From Paracoccaceae bacterium (GTDB lineage: Bacteria; Pseudomonadota; Alphaproteobacteria; Rhodobacterales; Rhodobacteraceae), in NCBI GenBank assembly GCA_014323785.1, contig JACONJ010000007.1:1-64000 (forward strand): DNA of 64,000 nucleotides, read 5' to 3'. The position numbers were made by a program, and so were the translations under genes. The stretch's first letter is position 1. Every line of letters begins with the position of its first letter. This document shows positions 3,592 to 57,837 of this stretch, in pieces. The notes beneath the pieces are model-generated. The model was given only the letters and a program-made list of their open reading frames with translations, was not told the origin of the DNA and made no database searches.

Positions 3592-3882
3592 TCGACACCG
3601 GAACCGGGGGCCGCTTACCGGTCGCCCCGGCCGCTTTGTGCATTGTGTTGACCATCGGCTGTGCACCTGCCGCGGGGACTGACCCTGCACGGGATACCAT
3701 CACATGCGCCTTGTTTTGATCATCACCGCCTTGCTCCGGACCGCCCGCACCGCCATTGCGCGATGTGCGGTTTTATATCCACGGACACCTGTTGGGATGT
3801 CATGTCTTTTAGCCAGGCGGTGCATCCAGCCCGGCCGGGTATCAGCCAGAACTCATAAGCCTGTGCCCGGTGGTGCGCGACC
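3592..3882. other. Intergenic stretch after pntB without a confident gene
   Basis: These 291 bases hold one short plus-strand frame (3704-3886, 60 codons) that starts with a hydrophobic signal-like MRLVLIITALL but soon loses any protein-like pattern and slightly overlaps the next start. It may be the remnant of a small exported protein; it is not called as a gene. Confidence 0.4.
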
Positions 3883-4452
3883 GTGAATACGCCCGCGCAT
3901 CTGCTTCTGGGGGCGGCGCTCTTTGCCCGGCCCGGACGGCGGGGTACCACACCCGCCGCGCTGCTCGGGGCCCTGGTGCCCGATATGTCGCTTTATCTGA
4001 TGGCTGGCACTGCCCTGTTCCTGCTGCAAATTCCGCCGCAGGTCGTGTTTGATGAGCTCTATTTCTCGGACAGCTGGCAAACGGTCTTTGCCATCGACAA
4101 TTCGATCTTCCTTTGGGGTGCGGTCTTTGCCTTTGGGCTGTGGCGGCGGGTGCCATGGGTCATGGCCTTCGCCGGGGCGGGCCTGATCCATTTGGCGACG
4201 GATTTTGCCCTGCATCATGACGATGGGCGCCCGCATTTTTGGCCCCTGACTATGTGGGTCTTTGAAAGCCCGCTCAGCTATTGGGACAGCCGCCAGGGTG
4301 CCTGGCTGGTGGCCCCTCTTGAAGGGCTTTTGGCCGCGCTCTGCTTGGGTCTGCTGTGGTGGCGGTTTACGCATTGGGCGGCGCGGCTTGGCTGGATCAC
4401 GCTTTTTGCCTTGCAGGTCTATGTTATCCGGCACTGGCTTGTATTCTTTTGA
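3883..4452 (+). CDS. Multi-pass membrane protein (YdjM-like; often mislabelled CobQ in Rhodobacterales)
   Basis: A 189-residue protein from a GTG start (MNTPAHLLLGAALFARPGRR). It has four or five hydrophobic helices and conserved acidic and histidine residues (PDMSLY, HLATDFALHHDDGRPHFWP) like those in YdjM/metal-dependent membrane hydrolases. Relatives in Rhodobacterales are often labelled 'cobalamin biosynthesis protein CobQ', but nothing here resembles a glutamine amidotransferase. The HxxxDFxxHHDDG cluster could bind metal; this is inference. It stands alone, about 180 bases ahead of the DUF1178 gene. Confidence 0.7.
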   Translation: MNTPAHLLLGAALFARPGRRGTTPAALLGALVPDMSLYLMAGTALFLLQIPPQVVFDELYFSDSWQTVFAIDNSIFLWGAVFAFGLWRRVPWVMAFAGAGLIHLATDFALHHDDGRPHFWPLTMWVFESPLSYWDSRQGAWLVAPLEGLLAALCLGLLWWRFTHWAARLGWITLFALQVYVIRHWLVFF

Positions 4453-4634
4453 TTTGTGTCAGGGTTGCCCTTTATCGCCATGTGATCAGGCCGCGCTGTC
4501 CTTTGCCCGGGAAAGCCGCGGCCCGGGTGAAGGAATTGGAACCTGGGCTTATTCTGCGGGAATTTGACCCGGCCCGGTTGCGGCAAAGGGATATTACTTG
4601 AACGCGTCGCAAATCTGCGTAGGTTGTTCTGACT

Positions 4635-5111
4635 ATGATCCGATACGCGCTGAAATGTACCAATGGCCATCGCTTTGAAAGCTGGTTCCAATCGGCGGAT
4701 GCTTTTGAGGCACTGACCAGGCGCGGCCTGCTGACGTGCACGGTGTGCGGGTGCAGTGATGTGTCAAAGGCCATGATGACCCCCCAGGTAAAGATAGGTG
4801 AAGATGTACCCCCCGCGGACGATGCTTCCCGCCCTCCGGTGCCTTCTGTACCCGCCAGGACTGCGGCACCAGTACTTAAGGCCGAGGCGCACCCGCTGGA
4901 GGCCGCGATCAGGGCAATACGCAAGCATGTCGAAGAGAACTCAACCTATGTCGGCGGTAAATTTGCGTCCGAGGCACGGGCGATCCATCTGGGCAACGCG
5001 CCAGACCGGCTCATCCATGGAGAGGCAAGCCCGGAGGAGGCGAAATCCCTGGTTGAAGACGGCGTACCCATCGCGCCATTGCCGGGGGGTCCGCGATCAA
5101 AGAGCAACTGA
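4635..5111 (+). CDS. DUF1178 family protein
   Basis: A 158-residue soluble protein starting MIRYALKCTNGHRFESWF, with an early Cys-His pair (C8, H12) and a CTVCGC cluster near residue 35, as in a zinc ribbon. The C-terminal half (RKHVEENSTYVGGKFASEAR, then RLIHGEASPEEAKSLVEDGVP) is the conserved DUF1178 signature. The family is widespread in alphaproteobacteria and has no assigned function. Length matches the family. It ends about 110 bases before the accessory patch at 5.2 kb. Confidence 0.92.
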   Translation: MIRYALKCTNGHRFESWFQSADAFEALTRRGLLTCTVCGCSDVSKAMMTPQVKIGEDVPPADDASRPPVPSVPARTAAPVLKAEAHPLEAAIRAIRKHVEENSTYVGGKFASEARAIHLGNAPDRLIHGEASPEEAKSLVEDGVPIAPLPGGPRSKSN

Positions 5112-5222: not shown

Positions 5223-6983
5223 ATGATTACCGATGACGAAATCCGCAGGCAGCTCCGTTTGGGGGAGGATAGCCGATGGGAATTCAAGCAGATTGAATTC
5301 AGGGGCAACAAACCTTTTAGCCCCAAAAGGGAAGATCTGGCGGATGAAATTGGCGCATTCGCCAATGCAGAGGGCGGAATCCTGCTTTGCGGGGTAACTG
5401 ACGGCGGAGACATTCAAGGCATGTCACGTGAACAGTTGAAAAAACTGGATCGTCTTCTGGCGGAAGTCTGTAGTGACACGATTAAACCGCCGTTGTGCCC
5501 CGCAATTTACCACAGAGAGATTGATGACAAGGCATTCATAGTCGTTGAAATTCCACGGGGTGAAGCACTGCACACGCGAGATGGGCAGGCGTTTCGCCGC
5601 GTTGGCGGAAGAAAAAGCAAACTAACCGAAGATGAAAAGCTGCGGCTGGCGAACAATCGTGCTCAGCACCGGTATCGCTGGTTTGACAAGCAGACTGTAC
5701 CCGGAACAGGGTTCGAAACCCTTGACAGGCAACTTTGGGAACCGTTGTTAAGTGCCACAGGGGCTGCTGACCCAGAGCGCGGATTGCTGAATCTCCGGCT
5801 TCTTGCGCTGGATCAGTTCGGCATTGTTCGTGCAACAAACGCCGGAATACTGCTTTGCACACAGACACCGCAAGACTGGTTGCCGCGTGCCATGATCATC
5901 GCAACGCATTATCGGGGCTCTGATCGCGCTTCCGGGCAGCTGGATGCCCGGGAAATTACGGGTCCACTTGCCCAACAGATTTCGGAAGCCGTTCAGTTTG
6001 TCATCCGCAACATGCGCGTTTCCGCACGCAAGACGCCTGCGCGGGAAAATCTTGCTCAATATAGCAAGGATGCTGTATTTGAAGCGGTCGTTAATGCGGT
6101 CGCGCATCGGGATTATGCCATGTCATCCCGAAACATCCGTTTGTCCATGTTTAAGGACCGTCTGGAAATCGAGTCACCCGGCACTCTTCCAAATGGCATG
6201 ACCATCGAAGGTATGGAATCAAGCTAGGCCACACGGAACGAAGTTATCACCTCCGTATTCGGTCGTATCCCTGTTGCCGATACAGCAGGTTCTGACCATC
6301 GCAGGTATTTGATGGAGCGCAGGGGGGATGGGGTGTCGATTATCCGGGCTAAAACCAGGGAAACAGCAGGTAAATTACCCGATTATGAACTGGTCGATGA
6401 ATCGAGTCTGGTATTGCGCATTCCTGCCGCCAGGCTCGAGATTGTTCCTGCGGATGCAACAGTTGCTGTGCATTCCAAAGGCGATGTCCTTGCCGGTATT
6501 GAAGTGCTTGCGCTCTTTCCCAACAAGACTTGGGTTCGGGCCATAACCGATGAGACTGGTTGTGCGACGCTGAACCTTTACACAACAAATCTGCCGATGA
6601 CGGTTTACGCGGCCGGGCACGGTTACGCAGCCGGGCTGATGCGCGAATGGGTGCCAGGGCAGGGTGGATTGACGCTGGAACTCAAAACGCTTGCCCTTGG
6701 TGGTTCCGTAATTTTTGAAAATGCTACAGGGCACCTCCCCGGATTGAATGGCCGGCTGAATCCGATACTTGATACGTCTGATCGGACGTATCTGTATGCT
6801 GACAATATCGCAATTGATGAAGGAAAACAGCAACCGGTAACGTTTTTTCCGGGTAGACCAATACGGCTTACAGACGCCTATGGGGTGGAAATGTCAGTTA
6901 CAATTATTGATATTACAGGGCGATCTGCTCTGGTTGAATACCAGCCCTTTCTTTGTCATCCTCTTTACGAAGAAGACGCTTAA
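5223..6983 (+). pseudogene. AlbA_2 / HATPase putative DNA-binding protein, interrupted by an in-frame TAG
   Basis: One reading frame codes for 586 residues but has TAG at codon 335 (6225-6227). Before it: an AlbA_2 (Schlafen-type) domain (residues about 15-130; EFKQIEF, DEIGAFANAEGGILLCGV) and the start of a HATPase_c_4 domain with its N-box VVNAVAHRDYAMS near residue 290. After it, the same frame continues in perfect family register (ATRNEVITSVFGRIP, then RRYLMERRGDGVSII), ending at 6983. Relatives have Gln here (S-Q-A-T-R-N-E), so a single CAG-to-TAG change explains the stop. The N-terminal product is 334 residues; a TTG at 6309 or ATG at 6312 could restart the C-terminal half. Such proteins are putative transcriptional regulators or defence-associated ATPases. 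Confidence 0.88.
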
Positions 6984-7022: not shown

Positions 7023-7607
7023 CTATGCGGAACCGGCGGTAAGGGTGCCCGTTTTGCCCGGATGTTGGGCACCGGGCTTTTCGCGCCAGACGAACATGAC
7101 CCGCACGGGGATCCGGTACTTGTCGGCCAGCCGCGCCGTTTCTTTCCACGCGGTATTAGCAGACACATACTGGATTGAAAGCCCGAGTTCATGATAATAC
7201 TGGTAGCTGTATTCTTCACACTTGAAAACCTCGGCCCCAACCTCCAATTCCCGAACCAGTTGCTCACCTTCCAATCCTGTAGATTGCTTCACTGCCGCAA
7301 TCATACCAACCGTGACGTACATCCATTTCGGGTTCCGTATCGGTTTTCCGTCTATCAATGCCTCGACCAGCTTCGTATGGGTAAGGTTTGGCACAGTTTC
7401 AAATGTCATGAAGTCATCATCTGACATATCGGATGTGCCCGGCACGTCATGGTCACGTTCCAAGCCGAGCTCCTCTATTACGAATTGGGTGATGTGGTCA
7501 ATCGTTTCACTTGGTGACCTAGCACCGAACCAGAGTTTGAGCATGCCGATATCGGCAAATGTTGCGTCACTGATCTGAACCTTCACAGGCACGATGAATA
7601 CCTCCAT
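7023..7607 (-). CDS. Unassigned protein with ribbon-helix-helix-like N-terminus
   Basis: A 194-residue protein not recognised with confidence. The start (VKVQISDATFADIGMLKLW, then SETIDHITQFVIEELG) has the beta-strand plus two-helix look of a ribbon-helix-helix or SeqA-N-like DNA-binding unit. The second half has a conserved-looking frame NPKW ... SIQYVSANTAWKETARLA ... VRVMFVWREKPGAQHPGKTG; I recall similar endings in uncharacterised proteins of accessory regions but cannot verify it. The ATG at 7607 is used; a GTG at 7628 would add seven residues. It is convergent with the broken AlbA_2 gene, 39 bases away, in the same AT-richer patch, so both may have arrived together. Confidence 0.7.
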   Translation of the reverse strand: MEVFIVPVKVQISDATFADIGMLKLWFGARSPSETIDHITQFVIEELGLERDHDVPGTSDMSDDDFMTFETVPNLTHTKLVEALIDGKPIRNPKWMYVTVGMIAAVKQSTGLEGEQLVRELEVGAEVFKCEEYSYQYYHELGLSIQYVSANTAWKETARLADKYRIPVRVMFVWREKPGAQHPGKTGTLTAGSA

Positions 7608-7682
7608 CAACGGAAACCAACCAAACACCTAACATTAAATCCGATCCGGGGCAATATGCGGAAGGATCGCCCGGTGCCCGGT

Positions 7683-28428: not shown

Positions 28429-30141
28429 TCACGCGCAAGCGATGCTGAGTCCTTCATTCGACAGCCCATCCAGACGCGGCATCAGTGCCAGCAAATCCCG
28501 CGTATACGGGTGCTGCGGACTGGCGAAGAGCTGTTCTGTTTCGGCCATTTCCACCAACCGCCCGTTTTTCATCACGCCCACCCGGTTGCACATTTGCCGT
28601 ACCACTGGCAGATCATGGCTGATGAACAGCATTGTCAGGTTCAGATGCTCCTGCAAATCTTTCAGGATATTCAGGATCTGTGCCTGGATCGAGACATCCA
28701 GCGCACTGGTCGGCTCATCGCAGATCAGAAAGCGCGGCTGCGTCGCCAGGGCCCGCGCGATGGCGATTCGCTGCCGCTGACCGCCGGAAAACTCGTGCGG
28801 GTATTTCAGCCCCGCATCGGCCCCCAGTCCGACCAGATCCAGCAACTCGGCCACGCGGTCCCATAGTGCCTGGCCCGCCAAAAGGCCATGATGGCGGGCG
28901 GGCTCGGCCACGATCGCATCAACCCGCATCCGGGGGTTCAGGCTGGAATACGGATCCTGAAAGATCATCTGGATGTGTTTGCGGAACCCCTCTGGCACGC
29001 CCGTGCGGCCCGAGGTGACATCCTGCCCCTCGAACTGCACACTGCCGCCATCGACGGCATATAACCCCGCGATCATCCGTGCGATGGTCGATTTGCCGGA
29101 ACCCGATTCGCCCATCAGGCCGAACACCTCTCCCCGGTGGATATCGAACTGCACCTGCTCAACGGCCGTGAAATACTCCCGCCGCGATGGCAGGATGGCC
29201 CCTTTCTGCAGGAATCGCTTGGTCAGCCCCTTGACCTGTAAAAGCGGCTGGCCGCGTCCGTCGGCCGGTAAGGGCCAGTTGCGCACGAGGTCTTCGGGAT
29301 TGAACCCGGCCACTTGCCCGCCATCGTCGATCAGCGGAAAGTGGCGTAGTTTGACTGTCGGACGCGGCACCGCGGCGATCAGCGATTTGGTATAGGGGTG
29401 GTCCGGCTGGCCCAGAACCATCGCGGTTGCCCCGGTTTCCACAACCTGCCCCTGATGCATGACTGTGACAACATCGGTGGTATCCGCGATTACGCCCATA
29501 TCGTGGGTGATCAGGATGACACCCACCTGCCGCTCCCGCACCAGTTCTGTGATCAGCTTCAGAATCTGTGCCTGGGTCGAGACATCAAGCGCGGTTGTCG
29601 GCTCATCGGCGATAATCACATCCGGTTCTGAACAGAGTGCCAGCGCAATCACCACGCGCTGCCGCATGCCGCCAGAGAATTGGTGCGGATACTGGTTGAT
29701 GCGCACCTTGGGGTTCGGGATGCCAACGCGGTCAATCAGCGCAAGGGCCCGCGCCCCGGCCCTGGCCTCTGACAGGTTCAGATGCGCCTGGATCGTCTCA
29801 ACCAATTGCTGTTTGATGGTGAACAACGGGTTAAGCGCGGTCAGGGGATCCTGAAAGATCATGCTGATTTTCCTGCCGCGGAGCGCACCCATCGCCTTGG
29901 TATCCAGGCCCGAGATGTCCTTTCCCCGGAAGCGGATCGTGCCGCCGGTGATATGGCCCGGCCGATCCAACAGACCCATCACAGCCGCCCCGACGGTGGA
30001 TTTGCCCGCGCCGGATTCGCCCACCAGCCCGTGAATCTGCCCCGCCTGCACGGCCAGATGCGCACCCTTCACGGCCAGAACCATCCTGCGGCGGGTCGGG
30101 AATGCGACGGTCAGGTTGTCGATGTCCAGAAGAGCTGTCAA
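28429..30141 (-). CDS. Peptide-type ABC importer, fused double ATP-binding protein
   Basis: A 570-residue protein with two complete ATPase units (DppD-like and DppF-like). Unit 1: Walker A GESGAGKSTVG near 42, signature FSGGMRQRVVIA, Walker B IIADEPTTALD. Unit 2: GESGSGKSTIAR near 345, FSGGQRQRIAIA, LICDEPTSALD; each is followed by the oligopeptide-type tail (HPYTKSL / HPYTRDL). It powers uptake of peptides or similar solutes with the permeases at 30769 and 31774 and the binding protein at 33523. The only plausible start is TTG at 30141, with TGAGG just upstream, directly at the edge of the HEPN cassette. Confidence 0.93.
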   Translation of the reverse strand: MTALLDIDNLTVAFPTRRRMVLAVKGAHLAVQAGQIHGLVGESGAGKSTVGAAVMGLLDRPGHITGGTIRFRGKDISGLDTKAMGALRGRKISMIFQDPLTALNPLFTIKQQLVETIQAHLNLSEARAGARALALIDRVGIPNPKVRINQYPHQFSGGMRQRVVIALALCSEPDVIIADEPTTALDVSTQAQILKLITELVRERQVGVILITHDMGVIADTTDVVTVMHQGQVVETGATAMVLGQPDHPYTKSLIAAVPRPTVKLRHFPLIDDGGQVAGFNPEDLVRNWPLPADGRGQPLLQVKGLTKRFLQKGAILPSRREYFTAVEQVQFDIHRGEVFGLMGESGSGKSTIARMIAGLYAVDGGSVQFEGQDVTSGRTGVPEGFRKHIQMIFQDPYSSLNPRMRVDAIVAEPARHHGLLAGQALWDRVAELLDLVGLGADAGLKYPHEFSGGQRQRIAIARALATQPRFLICDEPTSALDVSIQAQILNILKDLQEHLNLTMLFISHDLPVVRQMCNRVGVMKNGRLVEMAETEQLFASPQHPYTRDLLALMPRLDGLSNEGLSIACA

Positions 30142-30673
30142 AAAACCTCACGAGTGCGTGATCTGCAAACTTTTCACCAAATCTCTCACAAAATGTTTTG
30201 AAGTTATTCGCCGTTACGGCAGTCAAATTATAGTTCTTTCCGTCTACTTTCAGATCACTCCCATGTGCGATGCAATTTCGAAGCTGATTTAGTCGGTCCA
30301 AATTCTGCTTGACAGTGGTGTTGGCGCATTTTTGCCAGCTCAATTCATCCAATACCTTGAAGCGGCCAAGTCGAAAAAATAGTCGTTCAATGTTATTGGA
30401 ATTCGGGTTCCCCCACCTGCTGAACGACTCACGATACTGCTTTAAGTCTTTTTCGTTGAACTTAGTACGGAAAACCTTCTCGGAACATTCAACGAATACA
30501 TCCTCCACATACGTTTGAAGCGATGCGCTTAGGACAATCAAGATGGTCTGATTCAACGCATCATGTATGCGCCTGCCAGATTCGTCTTTCCGCGGGGCAC
30601 CTTTACGGCCTCCGTGATCCCGTTTTCTCAACTCGGCGAGTTGGTTTGCGTTGTCAAGTTTCAATTCCGCCAT
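29831..30673 (-). CDS. HEPN-domain protein (RiboL-PSP/MAE_28990-like) inserted in the ABC operon
   Basis: Residues 1-177 are a HEPN-type all-helical domain: NQTILIVLSASLQTYVEDVF, FSRWGNPNSNNIERLFFRLG, VKQNLDRLNQLRNCIAHGSD and the catalytic-type Rx4H (Arg132-His137 in RNCIAH). This pattern fits RiboL-PSP-HEPN, linked to RNA cleavage in defence or toxin systems. From residue ~178 (30139) to the stop at 29831 the frame runs through the downstream ABC ATPase gene in the wrong frame, so the last 103 residues are not native and the original C-terminus is missing. The gene is visibly AT-richer than its neighbours. The ATG at 30673 is in one of two tandem 22-bp copies of the ribosome site; an upstream ATG (30739) is also in frame. 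Confidence 0.82.
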   Translation of the reverse strand: MAELKLDNANQLAELRKRDHGGRKGAPRKDESGRRIHDALNQTILIVLSASLQTYVEDVFVECSEKVFRTKFNEKDLKQYRESFSRWGNPNSNNIERLFFRLGRFKVLDELSWQKCANTTVKQNLDRLNQLRNCIAHGSDLKVDGKNYNLTAVTANNFKTFCERFGEKFADHALVRFFDSSSGHRQPDRRIPDPPQDGSGREGCASGRAGGADSRAGGRIRRGQIHRRGGCDGSVGSAGPYHRRHDPLPGKGHLGPGYQGDGCAPRQENQHDLSGSPDRA

Positions 30674-30712
30674 GAGTCTTCTCCAAATCTGCCATGAGTC
30701 TTCTCCAAATCT
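30669..30712 (-). repeat. Tandem 22-bp duplication carrying the HEPN ribosome site and start codon
   Basis: Two exact adjacent copies (30669-30690 and 30691-30712). On the minus strand each contains GGAGAAGACTC followed by ATGGC. Because 22 is not a multiple of three, the outer copy's ATG leads only to a 13-codon frame, whereas the inner copy's ATG (30673) opens the HEPN frame. Confidence 0.9.
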
Positions 30713-30730
30713 CACATTTCGCATCAAAAC

Positions 30731-30760
30731 ATAATACACGGCACCATCCTATGGTGTCAA
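30731..30760 (-). promoter_or_regulatory. Sigma-70-type promoter with palindromic spacer for the HEPN gene
   Basis: On the minus strand TTGACA (30755-30760) and TATTAT (30731-30736) are separated by 18 bases. The spacer overlaps a perfect 6-3-6 inverted repeat, CACCATaggATGGTG (30742-30756), well placed for a repressor. Just downstream of the permease stop codon, so the HEPN gene has its own control inside the operon. Confidence 0.6.
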
Positions 30761-30768
30761 GTCTGCGA

Positions 30769-31767
30769 TCACCTCAGCCTGGGGTTCAGCGCATCGCGCA
30801 GCCAGTCGCCCAGCAGGTTCACCGCCAGTGCCAGCACCAGCAGCGTACAGGCCGGAAAGGCCAGGATCCACCACTCACCCGAAAACAAAAAGCCCTGGCC
30901 AATGCGGATCAGCGTGCCAAGCGAGGGCTGTGTCGGCGGGGCACCCACGCCCAGGAAGCTCAGCGTTGCCTCGGCGATGATCGCCAGGGCCAGCGAAATC
31001 GTGGCGATGACCAGAACCGGCGACAGCACATTGGGCAGAATATGGCGCACCATAATCGCCACAGAAGAGCACCCGATCAGCCGTGCGGCCTGTACGTAGT
31101 CCCTGGATGCCTCTACCAGTGTGGCCCCGCGCACGACGCGGGCGAATTGCACCCAGTCGCTGAGCCCGATGGCCAGGATCAGCACCCATATCGCCACCTG
31201 ATCGCGGTATTCGATGGGGGTAATGCCCTTGGCGATGCCAAAGATCAGCATCGCCACCAGGATTGCGGGAAAGGTCAACTGCACATCGGCGATGCGCATG
31301 ATGATCGCCTCGGTCCAGCCGCCAAAGTAGCCCGCCAGAAGCCCAAGCGTGACGCCCAGAACCATTGCGAACAGAACAGCTGAGAACCCCACGAAAAGCG
31401 ATACGCGCAGCCCGTAAAGGATGGTTGAAAACACATCGCGGCCCTGATCATCTGTGCCCAACAGGAAACGCTCTCCGGTGAAGGCATTGGCCTCTCCGGG
31501 GGGCGTGAAGCCGTTCAGCAGGTTCAGGGTTGCCGGGTTGAACGGATCATGCGGCGCGAGCAGCGGCGCACAGACCGCCGACAGGATCAACAGCAGCGTC
31601 AGGGCCAGCGATACAACCGCAACCGGCGAGTGGCGAAAGGACCAGGCCAAATCGCTATCCCAGGCGCGCAGGGCCCAGGGGAACACCGACCGCCCCGCCG
31701 GGGGCTGCCCCTGTGCGGCTGCGTTGAACAGCGCGGTGTCCTGATCGGGGGGCGGGGTGTCGGCCAT
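30769..31767 (-). CDS. Peptide-type ABC importer permease (DppC-like)
   Basis: A 332-residue inner-membrane permease with N-terminal helix (PVAVVSLALTLLLILSAVCA), a periplasmic loop with GTDDQGRDVFSTILYGLRVS (the DppC hallmark) and the EAA loop (GATLVEASRDYVQAARLIGC, RHILPNVLSPVLVIAT). Pairs with the DppB-like permease 6 bases upstream. Its stop codon is 8 bases from the TTGACA that marks the HEPN cassette edge. Confidence 0.94.
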   Translation of the reverse strand: MADTPPPDQDTALFNAAAQGQPPAGRSVFPWALRAWDSDLAWSFRHSPVAVVSLALTLLLILSAVCAPLLAPHDPFNPATLNLLNGFTPPGEANAFTGERFLLGTDDQGRDVFSTILYGLRVSLFVGFSAVLFAMVLGVTLGLLAGYFGGWTEAIIMRIADVQLTFPAILVAMLIFGIAKGITPIEYRDQVAIWVLILAIGLSDWVQFARVVRGATLVEASRDYVQAARLIGCSSVAIMVRHILPNVLSPVLVIATISLALAIIAEATLSFLGVGAPPTQPSLGTLIRIGQGFLFSGEWWILAFPACTLLVLALAVNLLGDWLRDALNPRLR

Positions 31768-46711: not shown

Positions 46712-47845
<1,134 letters not shown>

Positions 47846-53487: not shown

Positions 53488-56400
53488 ATGGGCAACGACC
53501 GGCTCATTGGCGGCGCGGGGGCTGACACCCTGGACGGTGGCACCGGCACCGATACCGCCACTTACGCGGGTTCGGACGCAGGCGTGTATGTGAGTCTCTC
53601 TGATCTTGGCCTCTTTGGAAAGCTCGCAGGTAACGGGCATGCGCGTGGCGACACCTTGCGCAATATCGAAAACCTTATCGGCTCCAGCCACAAAGACAGC
53701 CTCGCTGGTGATGCCGCGGCCAACCTGCTCGATGGCGGCGCGGGCGATGATACGCTCATCGGCGGCGCGGGGGCGGATACGCTGATTGGCGGTGATGGCA
53801 CCGATACCGCCGACTACGCGGAATCAAGAGCGGTTGTGAATGTAAACCTGAGCACCGGCACTGGCATATTTCGTAGCCACGCGGCGGGCGATGTGCTGAA
53901 GGGTATCGAGAACGTGGTCGGTAGCCTAGGCAACGACACCCTCACCGGCGATTCCGGTGATAACATGCTGGACGGCTTCATCGGCAATGATGTGCTGGAC
54001 GGCGGCGCGGGGGCCGACACGCTGATTGGCGGCTACGGCACCGATACCGCCAGTTACGCAGGATCAAACGCGGGCGTGAATGTGAACCTGGGTACTGGTG
54101 CCGCATCCGGTGGGCACGCTTTGGGCGATGTGCTGAACAGCATTGAAAACGTGGTCGGCTCCGCCCACAACGACACGCTGACCGGCGATTCCGGTGATAA
54201 CATGCTGGAAGGCGGCGCGGGCAGCGATACCGCCAGCTATGCGGATTCGGACGCCGGCGTGAATGTGAACCTGGGCGATAGCACCGCCTCTGGTGGCCAC
54301 GCGGCGGGCGATGTGCTGAATAGCATCGAGAACCTCATAGGTTCCGCCCACGCCGACACCCTGGCCGGCGATGCCACGGCCAACCTGCTGGACGGCGGCG
54401 CGGGCAACGATACCGCCACCTACGCAAGATCAGACGCGGGCGTGAATGTCAACCTGGGCTTGGGCACCGGTGCTGGTGGCCACGCTTTGGGCGATGTGCT
54501 GCGCGGCATTGAGAACCTCATCGGCTCCGCCCACGCCGACACCCTCACCGGGGATACCACGGCCAACCTGCTGGACGGCGGCGCGGGCAATGACACGTTG
54601 CACGGCGGTGCGGGGGCCGACACGCTCACTGGCAGTACTGGCAGCGATACCGCCACCTACGCGGGCTCAGATGCGGGCGTGAATGTCAACTTGGGCCAGG
54701 GCACCGCCTCTGGTGGCCACGCGGCGGGCGATGTGTTGAGTGGCGTTGAGAACCTCATCGGCTCGAATCACGCCGACACCTTGGCTGGCGATGCCACGGC
54801 CAACATGCTGGACGGCGGCGCGGGTACCGATACCGCCATCTACGCAAGCTCAAATGCGGGCGTGAATGTAAACCTGGGCCGTGGCACCGCCTCTGGTGGT
54901 CATGCTTTGGGCGATGTGCTGCGCGGCATTGAGAACCTCATCGGCTCCGCCCACGCCGACACCCTGGCTGGCGATGCTACGGCCAACATGCTGGACGGCG
55001 GCGCGGGTAACGACACGCTTACCGGTGGCGCGGGCAACGACACGCTAAGGGGCGGTGCAGGGGCCGACACCCTGGACGGCGGCGCGGGCACCGATACCGC
55101 CGACTATGCGGGTTCGAATGCAGGCGTGCAGGTGTTTATCCACGGATTGGTATTTGGCTTTGAAGCGTATCCTTGGGGCGGGGATGCGCATGGCGATACC
55201 TTGCGCAACATCGAAAACCTTATCGGCTCTGGCCACAACGACATCCTCTCTGGGGATTTCAACAGCAACCATCTGGACGGCGGTGCGGGCAACGATACCC
55301 TCATCGGCTACAGCGGAGACGACACCTTGAACGGCTTCATCGGCAATGATGTGCTGAACGGCGGCGCGGGGTCTGACAGGCTTACCGGCGGCGACGGCAC
55401 CGATACCGCCACCTACAAACACTCCGACGCAGGCGTGAATGTGAACCTGGGCCTGGGCACCGCCTCCGGTGGCTTGGCGGCGGGCGATGTGCTGAACAGC
55501 ATCGAGAACGTGATCGGCGGTCAAGGCAACGACACGCTCACCGGCGATTCAGGTGATAACGTGCTGGACGGCGGCAACGGTGGTGACAACCTGACTGGCG
55601 GCGCGGGCAACGACACGCTAAGGGGCGGTGCGGGGGCGGATACGCTCACCGGCGGCGATGGCACCGATACCGCCACCTACAACAACTCCGACGCAGGCGT
55701 GAATGTGAACTTGGGCCGGGGCACCGCCTCCGGTGGCTTGGCGGCGGGCGATGTGCTGCGCGGCATCGAAAACCTCATCGGATCCGGCCACGCTGACAGC
55801 CTCACCGGGGATGTCACCGCCAACCTGCTGGACGGCGGCGCAGGCAATGATACGCTAAGGGGCAGTAAGCAGATTGACACGCTCATCGGCGGCACGGGCG
55901 ATGACGTTCTGGACGGCGGCAGGGCGGACGACACCCTGGACGGCGGTGCGGGTACGGATACCGCCACCTACGTACGTTCAAGAGAGGGCGTGAACGTTAG
56001 CCTGGGCACCGGCACTGGCAGCGGCGGGGATGCGCAGGGCGACACGCTGAAGGGCATCGAGAACCTTATCGGCTCGAACCACGCCGACACCCTGGCTGGC
56101 GATGTCGCGGCCAACCTGCTGGATGGCGGTGCGGGTGCGGATACGCTCATTGGCGGCACGGGCAACGATACGCTAAGGGGCGGCGCAGATGCCGACATTC
56201 TGGACGGCGGGGATGGCACGGATACGGCCAGTTACGCAGGTTCCGACGCGGGCGTGCATGTGAACCTGGGTGATGGTACTGGCACCGGTGGCCACGCACA
56301 GGGCGATGTGCTGCGCAATATCGAAAACCTCATCGGATCCGTCCACTCCGACGCCCTGCTTGGCAATTCCCGAGCCAATATGCTGGACGGCGGCACCGGG

Positions 56401-57837
56401 GCTGACACGCTGCAGGGCGGCGCGGGGGCCGATACGCTGATTGGTGGCGACGGCACGGATACCGCCAGCTATGCGGGTTCGGACACGGGCGTCACGGTGA
56501 ACCTGGGCACTGGCACCGCCTCTGGTGGCCATGCTTTGGGCGATATGCTGAACGGAATCGAGAACCTGACCGGCTCTGATCACGCCGACAGCCTGACCGG
56601 CGATGCCACGGCCAACCTGCTGGATGGCGGCACAGGCGACGACACACTCACTGGCGGAGCGGGTGCCGATACGCTGCAGGGCGGTGACGGCACCGATACC
56701 GCCAGCTATGCGGGTTCGGACACGGGCGTCACGGTGAACCTGGGCACTGGCACCGCCTCTGGTGGCCATGCTTTGGGCGATGTGCTCAGCAGCATCGAGA
56801 ACCTCATCGGCTCTGACCACGCCGACACCCTCACCGGGGATGACGGCAACAATCATCTGACCGGCGGCGCGGGCAACGATACGCTCACCGGCGGCGCGGG
56901 GGCCGACACGCTGGACGGCGGCATGGGCACCAACACAGCCAGTTACACGAACATATCCGCCGTCACGTCATGGTCAACGGAATCCGTTCCGTTTGGCGTG
57001 TGGGTGAGCCTTGCCACTGGCAAGGGTGGTCTTAACTTTGCCTCGGGCGATGTGCTGCACAACATTCAGAATCTGCTGGGGTCACAATACAGGGATGTGC
57101 TGACTGGCGATGCCGCGGCCAACCTGCTGGACGGCGGCGCGGGCAACGATACGCTAAGGGGCGGCGCAGATGCCGACATTCTGGACGGCGGGGATGGCAC
57201 GGATACGGCCAGTTACGCAGGTTCCGACGCGGGCGTGCATGTGAACCTGGGTGATGGTACTGGCACCGGTGGCCACGCACAGGGCGATGTGCTCAGCAGC
57301 ATCGAGAACCTGACCGGCTCCGATCACGCCGACTTCCTTGCCAGCGATGCCGTGGCCAGCCTGCTGGACGGGCGCGCGGGCGCGGACACGCTGCGCGGCG
57401 GTGGCGGGGCTGATACGCTCACCGGTGGTACGGGCGATGACCGGCTCAGGGGGCATCAGGGTGATGACCACCTGACTGGCGGCGCAGACCACGACCGGCT
57501 GGATGGCGGCACCGGGCACGACACGCTGGATGGCGGCGCAGGCCAGGATACCATCATCGGCAGGTCCGGGAATGATGTTCTGATTGGCGGCGCGGACCGG
57601 GATGTTTTCCTGTTCAAGGATAACTTCGGCACTGATGTCATCACAGACTTTGAGGATGGCCTTGATCGGATCATGATCAGTGCCGACGGGGTCAGGTTCA
57701 AAGACCTGTCCATCACCGGCACGGGCACGGATGTGGACCGGGCAGCGGTCGTCACCTGGGGAACGGAGGGCGACAGCATCACGCTGGAGGGCGTGGACCA
57801 TACGGCCCTGACGCGGGCGGATTTCATCTTCTGGTGA
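53488..57837 (+). CDS. RTX protein, downstream intact part (cassettes 4-19 and C-terminal secretion domain)
   Basis: From ATG 53488 (MGNDRLIGGAGADTLDGG) 1449 residues run without interruption to the end, including sixteen of the nineteen cassettes and the C-terminal FKDNFGTDVITDFEDGLDRI ... FIFW region. There is no ribosome site worth noting at 53488, which is an internal codon of the intended gene, so independent expression is doubtful. Nucleotide repeats inside it make assembly errors possible. Confidence 0.7.
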   Translation: MGNDRLIGGAGADTLDGGTGTDTATYAGSDAGVYVSLSDLGLFGKLAGNGHARGDTLRNIENLIGSSHKDSLAGDAAANLLDGGAGDDTLIGGAGADTLIGGDGTDTADYAESRAVVNVNLSTGTGIFRSHAAGDVLKGIENVVGSLGNDTLTGDSGDNMLDGFIGNDVLDGGAGADTLIGGYGTDTASYAGSNAGVNVNLGTGAASGGHALGDVLNSIENVVGSAHNDTLTGDSGDNMLEGGAGSDTASYADSDAGVNVNLGDSTASGGHAAGDVLNSIENLIGSAHADTLAGDATANLLDGGAGNDTATYARSDAGVNVNLGLGTGAGGHALGDVLRGIENLIGSAHADTLTGDTTANLLDGGAGNDTLHGGAGADTLTGSTGSDTATYAGSDAGVNVNLGQGTASGGHAAGDVLSGVENLIGSNHADTLAGDATANMLDGGAGTDTAIYASSNAGVNVNLGRGTASGGHALGDVLRGIENLIGSAHADTLAGDATANMLDGGAGNDTLTGGAGNDTLRGGAGADTLDGGAGTDTADYAGSNAGVQVFIHGLVFGFEAYPWGGDAHGDTLRNIENLIGSGHNDILSGDFNSNHLDGGAGNDTLIGYSGDDTLNGFIGNDVLNGGAGSDRLTGGDGTDTATYKHSDAGVNVNLGLGTASGGLAAGDVLNSIENVIGGQGNDTLTGDSGDNVLDGGNGGDNLTGGAGNDTLRGGAGADTLTGGDGTDTATYNNSDAGVNVNLGRGTASGGLAAGDVLRGIENLIGSGHADSLTGDVTANLLDGGAGNDTLRGSKQIDTLIGGTGDDVLDGGRADDTLDGGAGTDTATYVRSREGVNVSLGTGTGSGGDAQGDTLKGIENLIGSNHADTLAGDVAANLLDGGAGADTLIGGTGNDTLRGGADADILDGGDGTDTASYAGSDAGVHVNLGDGTGTGGHAQGDVLRNIENLIGSVHSDALLGNSRANMLDGGTGADTLQGGAGADTLIGGDGTDTASYAGSDTGVTVNLGTGTASGGHALGDMLNGIENLTGSDHADSLTGDATANLLDGGTGDDTLTGGAGADTLQGGDGTDTASYAGSDTGVTVNLGTGTASGGHALGDVLSSIENLIGSDHADTLTGDDGNNHLTGGAGNDTLTGGAGADTLDGGMGTNTASYTNISAVTSWSTESVPFGVWVSLATGKGGLNFASGDVLHNIQNLLGSQYRDVLTGDAAANLLDGGAGNDTLRGGADADILDGGDGTDTASYAGSDAGVHVNLGDGTGTGGHAQGDVLSSIENLTGSDHADFLASDAVASLLDGRAGADTLRGGGGADTLTGGTGDDRLRGHQGDDHLTGGADHDRLDGGTGHDTLDGGAGQDTIIGRSGNDVLIGGADRDVFLFKDNFGTDVITDFEDGLDRIMISADGVRFKDLSITGTGTDVDRAAVVTWGTEGDSITLEGVDHTALTRADFIFW
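56159..57293 (+). repeat. Perfect 154-bp direct repeat inside the RTX gene (copies 981 bp apart)
   Basis: Bases 56159-56312 and 57140-57293 are identical by eye. The offset is 327 codons, so the repeat is in frame. A second pair, 56458-56544 and 56695-56781 (87 bp, offset 237 bp = 79 codons), is also identical. Exact identity contrasts with the diverged remainder and suggests recent duplication or gene conversion. Confidence 0.85.

Follow-up and report, generated by a model that had tools for sequence, protein, structure and literature searches.

Organization of the locus

The window analysed here, a stretch of 64,000 nucleotides (64 kb) from a Paracoccaceae genome, carries a peptide-transporter operon on its minus strand, in which the gene for a DppC-type permease (dppC, 30769-31767) is followed by a HEPN gene (start at 30673) and then by the gene for a fused DppDF-type ABC ATPase of 570 aa (28429-30141), which begins with TTG where its relatives begin with ATG. 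That the HEPN gene lies directly between the other two agrees with an earlier sequence-only reading, whose limits were off by only a few bases; the foreign DNA, absent in congeners, spans 30142-30761 (minus strand; 620 bp, GC 45%). Its left edge comes after AGGTGATCGCAGA, which is common to the sister-genus genome G011, and its right edge lies at the ATPase start codon. The same reading had called the segment AT-richer, and indeed no other 534-nt stretch in the 64 kb is as AT-rich as the HEPN stretch (GC 45.1%, z = -4.2). The gene is single-copy in its 2.55-Mb genome. DppC and the fused ABC ATPase are its only adjoining genes, with no MNT nucleotidyltransferase or other defence gene adjacent, as had been noted. 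An insertion-element reading of the segment was rejected: neither terminal inverted repeats nor a target duplication or transposase could be clearly made out, and end-to-end similarities were weak at best.

Other parts of the window also hold genes of note. A Schlafen AlbA_2 protein (PF04326, E 1e-18) is encoded at 5223-6227 (plus strand; GC 53%), near another AT-richer ORF (7023-7628, minus strand), the two possibly marking a second acquired patch. A protein that joins an N6/N4 DNA methylase to an Mrr-type nuclease domain (PF01555 + PF04471; 22405-24081, plus strand) is a possible single-chain restriction-modification protein. A CcrM-like methylase with a RAMA domain (46712-47815, minus strand) finds its best PADLOC match in an orphan methyltransferase, and the RTX calcium-binding repeat (PF00353, E 3e-135) recurs many times in a 1449-residue ORF (53488-57837, plus strand).

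Family, motif and fold of the HEPN protein

The HEPN coding region (30140-30673, minus strand), supported by Pfam match, alignment and structure model, runs for 178 codons from ATG to F178 and has no stop codon at its end. The encoded protein belongs to the RiboL-PSP-type HEPN proteins, and its Rx4H motif is intact. An HMM search against HEPN families, suggested earlier as a check, gave a match to PF18735 (HEPN_RiboL-PSP) of 40.7 bits, above the curated cut-off of 28.4, over positions 25-187 of 191; PF18735 was also found in 9/9 aligned relatives. The motif, RNCIAH (R132-H137; 30263-30280, minus strand), keeps R132, N133, A136 and H137, which are invariant across 10 aligned sequences, bearing out the first identification of a HEPN domain with Rx4H. 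A structure model built from the single sequence was poor (pLDDT 59), and a confident alignment-based model took its place (pLDDT 87, pTM 0.83), with a mostly helical core. Its best matches among solved structures were mostly HEPN proteins (MntA-HepT, AF_0298, HI0074), all weak, with E-values of 0.3 or worse; a BFVD search returned nothing meaningful, and no relative came up when a profile was run against solved-structure sequences. A Pfam scan of the protein gave no match to Abi_2 (AbiD/F) or to the classical HEPN model PF05168, and only sub-threshold ones to DUF3644 and MAE_28990. PADLOC models (to 2023) matched weakly and partially, around the motif only, the best being RTasHEPN (E 0.0019).

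Start and end of the HEPN gene

The claim that the gene has its own promoter stands. Within the 98 nt upstream of the gene, where the leader is unstructured, a -35 element TTGACA (30755-30760, minus strand) and a -10 element TATTAT (30731-30736, minus strand) are separated by a spacer of 18, an 11/12 match that is the only one of its kind in the 64 kb on either strand; its score is reached by 0.12% of shuffles of the 98-nt stretch. The spacer also contains a palindrome, CACCAT-AGG-ATGGTG (30742-30756), which was considered as a possible operator; it is the sole copy in the genome, yet 10% of shuffles reach an arm of 6 bp, which makes it weak, and it is not claimed. Downstream, the ribosome-binding site and start region are covered by a perfect 22-bp tandem duplication (30669-30712, minus strand; AGATTTGGAGAAGACTCATGGC twice), which created an out-of-frame upstream ORF of 13 codons (MADLEKTHGGIET; 30654-30695, minus strand) overlapping the HEPN start. 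The duplicated start region may weaken HEPN translation.

At the other end, the protein had been thought to lack its C-terminus. However, relatives are mostly stand-alone proteins of 177-185 aa, of which most end in H-A-L/M plus 2-5 residues, and the window protein reads HALVRFF where they end; the HEPN domain is therefore full length, and the stop codon alone is missing. It is absent because a T6 run (30140-30145, minus strand), not T7, precedes GAC in GTG AGG TTT TTT GAC, and the frame continues for about 100 Gly/Arg/Asp-rich codons within the ATPase gene before a stop is reached (29831-30139, minus strand). In five relatives this reading frame of the ATPase gene meets a stop after 4-26 codons. 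With one T added, or with a -1 slip on T6, the frame would read F-F-stop (TGA) exactly where relatives end, overlapping the TTG start of the ATPase gene. The T6 run may be true sequence or a sequencing error. Unless frameshifting ends the protein, about 100 unrelated residues would be added, and the window copy may be impaired. Within the last HEPN codons, a Shine-Dalgarno-like GAGG (30146-30149, minus strand) can be read as the putative ribosome-binding site of the ATPase gene. Because these codons would provide that site, the HEPN and ATPase genes are probably on one transcript, which would arise both at the new promoter and by upstream read-through.

Insertion at the dppC / dppDF junction

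The comparison of the dpp-like locus among relatives, proposed with the sequence-only reading, shows what the junction looks like elsewhere. In six congeners, whose orthologous dppC is 89-90% identical and whose ATPase is 79-81% identical, the HEPN gene is absent from the junction and from everywhere else in the genome (one of the genomes being 89% complete), and the segment is also absent from the junction in sister-genus genome G011. Three congeners (G397, G398, G400) have a dppC stop that overlaps the ATPase ATG, while in two (G168, G399) the junction carries a gene for a 56-residue membrane protein, and in the sixth (G401) it carries a 60-residue homologue of that protein together with an ORF with a signal-like N-terminus. 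A membrane gene is likewise found in G011, along with a methyltransferase gene, which we take from its sequence to be FkbM-like. In three outgroup genera dppC adjoins the ATPase gene. Since the congener and sister-genus junctions are closed or hold unrelated small genes, the segment is an insertion, specific to the window species among the species compared. At its left edge the window sequence AGGCTGAGGTGATCGCAGA matches AGGCTCAGGTGATGGCAGA of G011, which precedes the membrane gene there, so the HEPN segment probably replaced the gene for a membrane protein of 56-60 residues. The dppC / dppDF junction thus holds different small genes by species, as a variable cargo slot (L034 9512-10170, L045 433-1494).

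The earlier description of a recent insertion holds as far as the insertion goes, its recency being only bounded by these comparisons. Base composition as a clock was rejected: HEPN relatives, too, are AT-richer than their surroundings, and AT-richness, as a property of the HEPN family, means that low GC cannot date the event.

Relatives and their mobility

Searches with the single protein found two plasmids and nothing in scans of genome contigs and viral contigs; an alignment of four sequences was needed as query to reach eight genome loci and three viral loci. Homologues are sparse, occurring in 3/396 other sampled genomes of the family, and a profile search covering 395 genomes from the order gave two besides the window. 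The nearest relatives are 34-43% identical to the window protein. A solo HEPN gene is carried by a conjugative Roseovarius plasmid (L026) and by a chromosomal contig of Rhodobacter sp. TJ_12 (L052), and further relatives lie antisense between structural genes in a Wenxinia prophage (L055) and a related viral contig (L058), and on another viral contig (L060). In a Rhodobacter MAG (L056, chromosomal contig), there is a 4-nt overlap between the HEPN stop and the ATG of a DUF6638 gene. A truncated relative (L057) adjoins an IS21-like element; phage and IS21 labels of unannotated ORFs at these loci are presumptive, being our own reading of the sequences. At all relative loci, including those with conserved neighbours described next, the HEPN gene has a lower GC than its surroundings (43-58% vs 54-69%). 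Close relatives are under strong purifying selection, as between L050 and L026 (dS 0.51, dN 0.02), whose HEPN proteins are 94% identical. Of the two options left open earlier, a solo HEPN fits these stand-alone relatives on plasmids, prophages and chromosomes, several of them solo, while a fragment of a larger module does not, homologues being mostly stand-alone proteins that end where the window protein does.

Some relatives have conserved neighbours. In Chachezhania, Celeribacter and a MAG (L050, L053, L054), the HEPN gene directly follows a conserved 338-aa gene without Pfam match (L050 4759-5775, L053 1425-2441, L054 4756-5775), and L054 has a further weak HEPN match at 3663-4712. In Pararhizobium (L051) and Mesorhizobium (L027), the HEPN gene precedes a conserved gene of 178-203 aa that overlaps its stop by one base, a possible partner without Pfam or PADLOC match (L027 8534-9145, L051 6537-7073). 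Separately, a distant HEPN relative (~28% identical; L030 1229-3038) lies beside a TIR-domain gene (PF13676), in a possible two-gene defence unit.

Proposed function and alternative explanations

PF18735 domains occur in PD-T4-2, PD-T4-5, PD-T7-3 and ApeA, all tested defence systems (PMC10952713). PD-T4-5 is plasmid-borne, a distant relative of AbiF/D, and gives Abi defence (PMC9519451), and RiboL-PSP HEPN domains are predicted to be active, with a distant relationship to AbiF/AbiD (Anantharaman et al., 2013, PMC3710099). Because PF18735 is found in tested defence systems and has AbiF/AbiD kinship, the most likely function of the window protein is that of an RNase that would stop growth on phage infection. 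The reading we favour, at a probability of roughly 0.6, is that of a solo, horizontally moved PF18735 HEPN RNase acting as an abortive-infection gene, a single gene that came with its own promoter into the dppC / dppDF junction, most likely in place of the small membrane-protein gene. As to the predicted RNase activity, its restraint and its trigger, we infer that the protein would dimerise, two Rx4H motifs forming the RNase site, that it would stay quiet or weakly expressed until phage infection, and that on infection the predicted RNase would cleave RNA, so that growth stops (abortive infection).

Alternatively, the insertion may be dying, the foreign gene no longer making a working protein. 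The stop codon missing at the natural end, with the resulting fusion to a nonsense tail of ~100 residues, and the decoy upstream ORF that the duplication lays out of frame over the HEPN start are consistent with decay, and such genes do decay, as truncated L057 illustrates. However, apart from its end the frame stays open through all 178 codons and has every invariant residue, the strong promoter is retained, and a slip on the T6 run or one more T would restore the usual end, so that we consider decay unlikely, though a serious contender.

It is rather improbable that the protein is the toxin of a toxin-antitoxin pair, whose antitoxin would be an AbiF-like RNA or a protein from another locus. 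A noncoding RNA keeps the HEPN toxins of the related AbiD/F group in check (PMC12373285), and some relatives have the conserved 338-aa or overlapping 178-203-aa neighbour described above. However, Rfam searches gave no RNA family and no abiF motif at the locus or close to the HEPN gene in any of ten related loci, no noncoding stretch common to the window locus and its relatives was found, and the 98-nt upstream stretch has an unstructured leader, so a noncoding RNA antitoxin was rejected. No homologue of the 338-aa gene was found in the window genome, in a search run without positive control, and neither conserved neighbour is present at L026, L052, L055 or L060. L026 shares its HEPN gene with L050, but the 338-aa gene found ahead of its relatives of 92-94% identity is missing there, so this gene is not obligatory.

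A housekeeping regulator native to the transporter operon would suit the co-directional, tightly packed arrangement, in which the gene end supplies the ATPase ribosome-binding site, but the absence of the gene from the junction and genomes of six congeners contradicts this reading, and its foreign composition and the location of its relatives on mobile elements also speak against it, which leaves it barely credible.

The abortive-infection reading can be extended, speculatively and at long odds, to a new clade of stand-alone HEPN defence genes, each travelling alone between prophages, plasmids and chromosomal operons in Rhodobacterales and Rhizobiales and settling at the start of the next gene. 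The overlap of the HEPN end with the next start codon (ATPase here, DUF6638 in L056) would tie it to a host gene, and the T6 slippery run would here decide between the normal HEPN end and the long fusion.

Relation to known systems and significance

One close parallel is the RiboL-PSP HEPN group, with the same domain by curated cut-off, the same Rx4H motif and predicted RNase activity; its founding forms, however, are fused to an L-PSP domain or lie beside a ParB gene, whereas the window HEPN stands alone (PMC3710099). PD-T4-5 and AbiD/AbiF are likewise HEPN proteins on mobile DNA (PMC9519451, PMC12373285). AbiF of Clostridioides difficile has RNQCAH where the window protein has RNCIAH, and, unlike AbiD/F, the latter falls outside the Abi_2 Pfam family and its locus yielded no abiF RNA motif. 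Tha, a tail-activated HEPN of S. aureus prophages, is likewise a prophage-carried HEPN gene (PMC11087260), to which the relatives L055 and L058, antisense within prophage structural genes, can be likened; at 301 aa with an extra N-terminal region, it differs from the window HEPN. HEPN-MNT toxin-antitoxin pairs (MntA-HepT) gave the best, though weak, fold matches of the model, but the window HEPN has neither an adjacent MNT gene nor a PF05168 match.

The window HEPN thus joins an already known kind of mobile anti-phage gene, and what is unusual is its place and its missing stop codon. A small solo HEPN clade is added, which PADLOC 2023 models match marginally at best and which is recurrent mobile cargo in alphaproteobacteria; in this genus, the dppC / dppDF junction is a slot for different small genes in different species.
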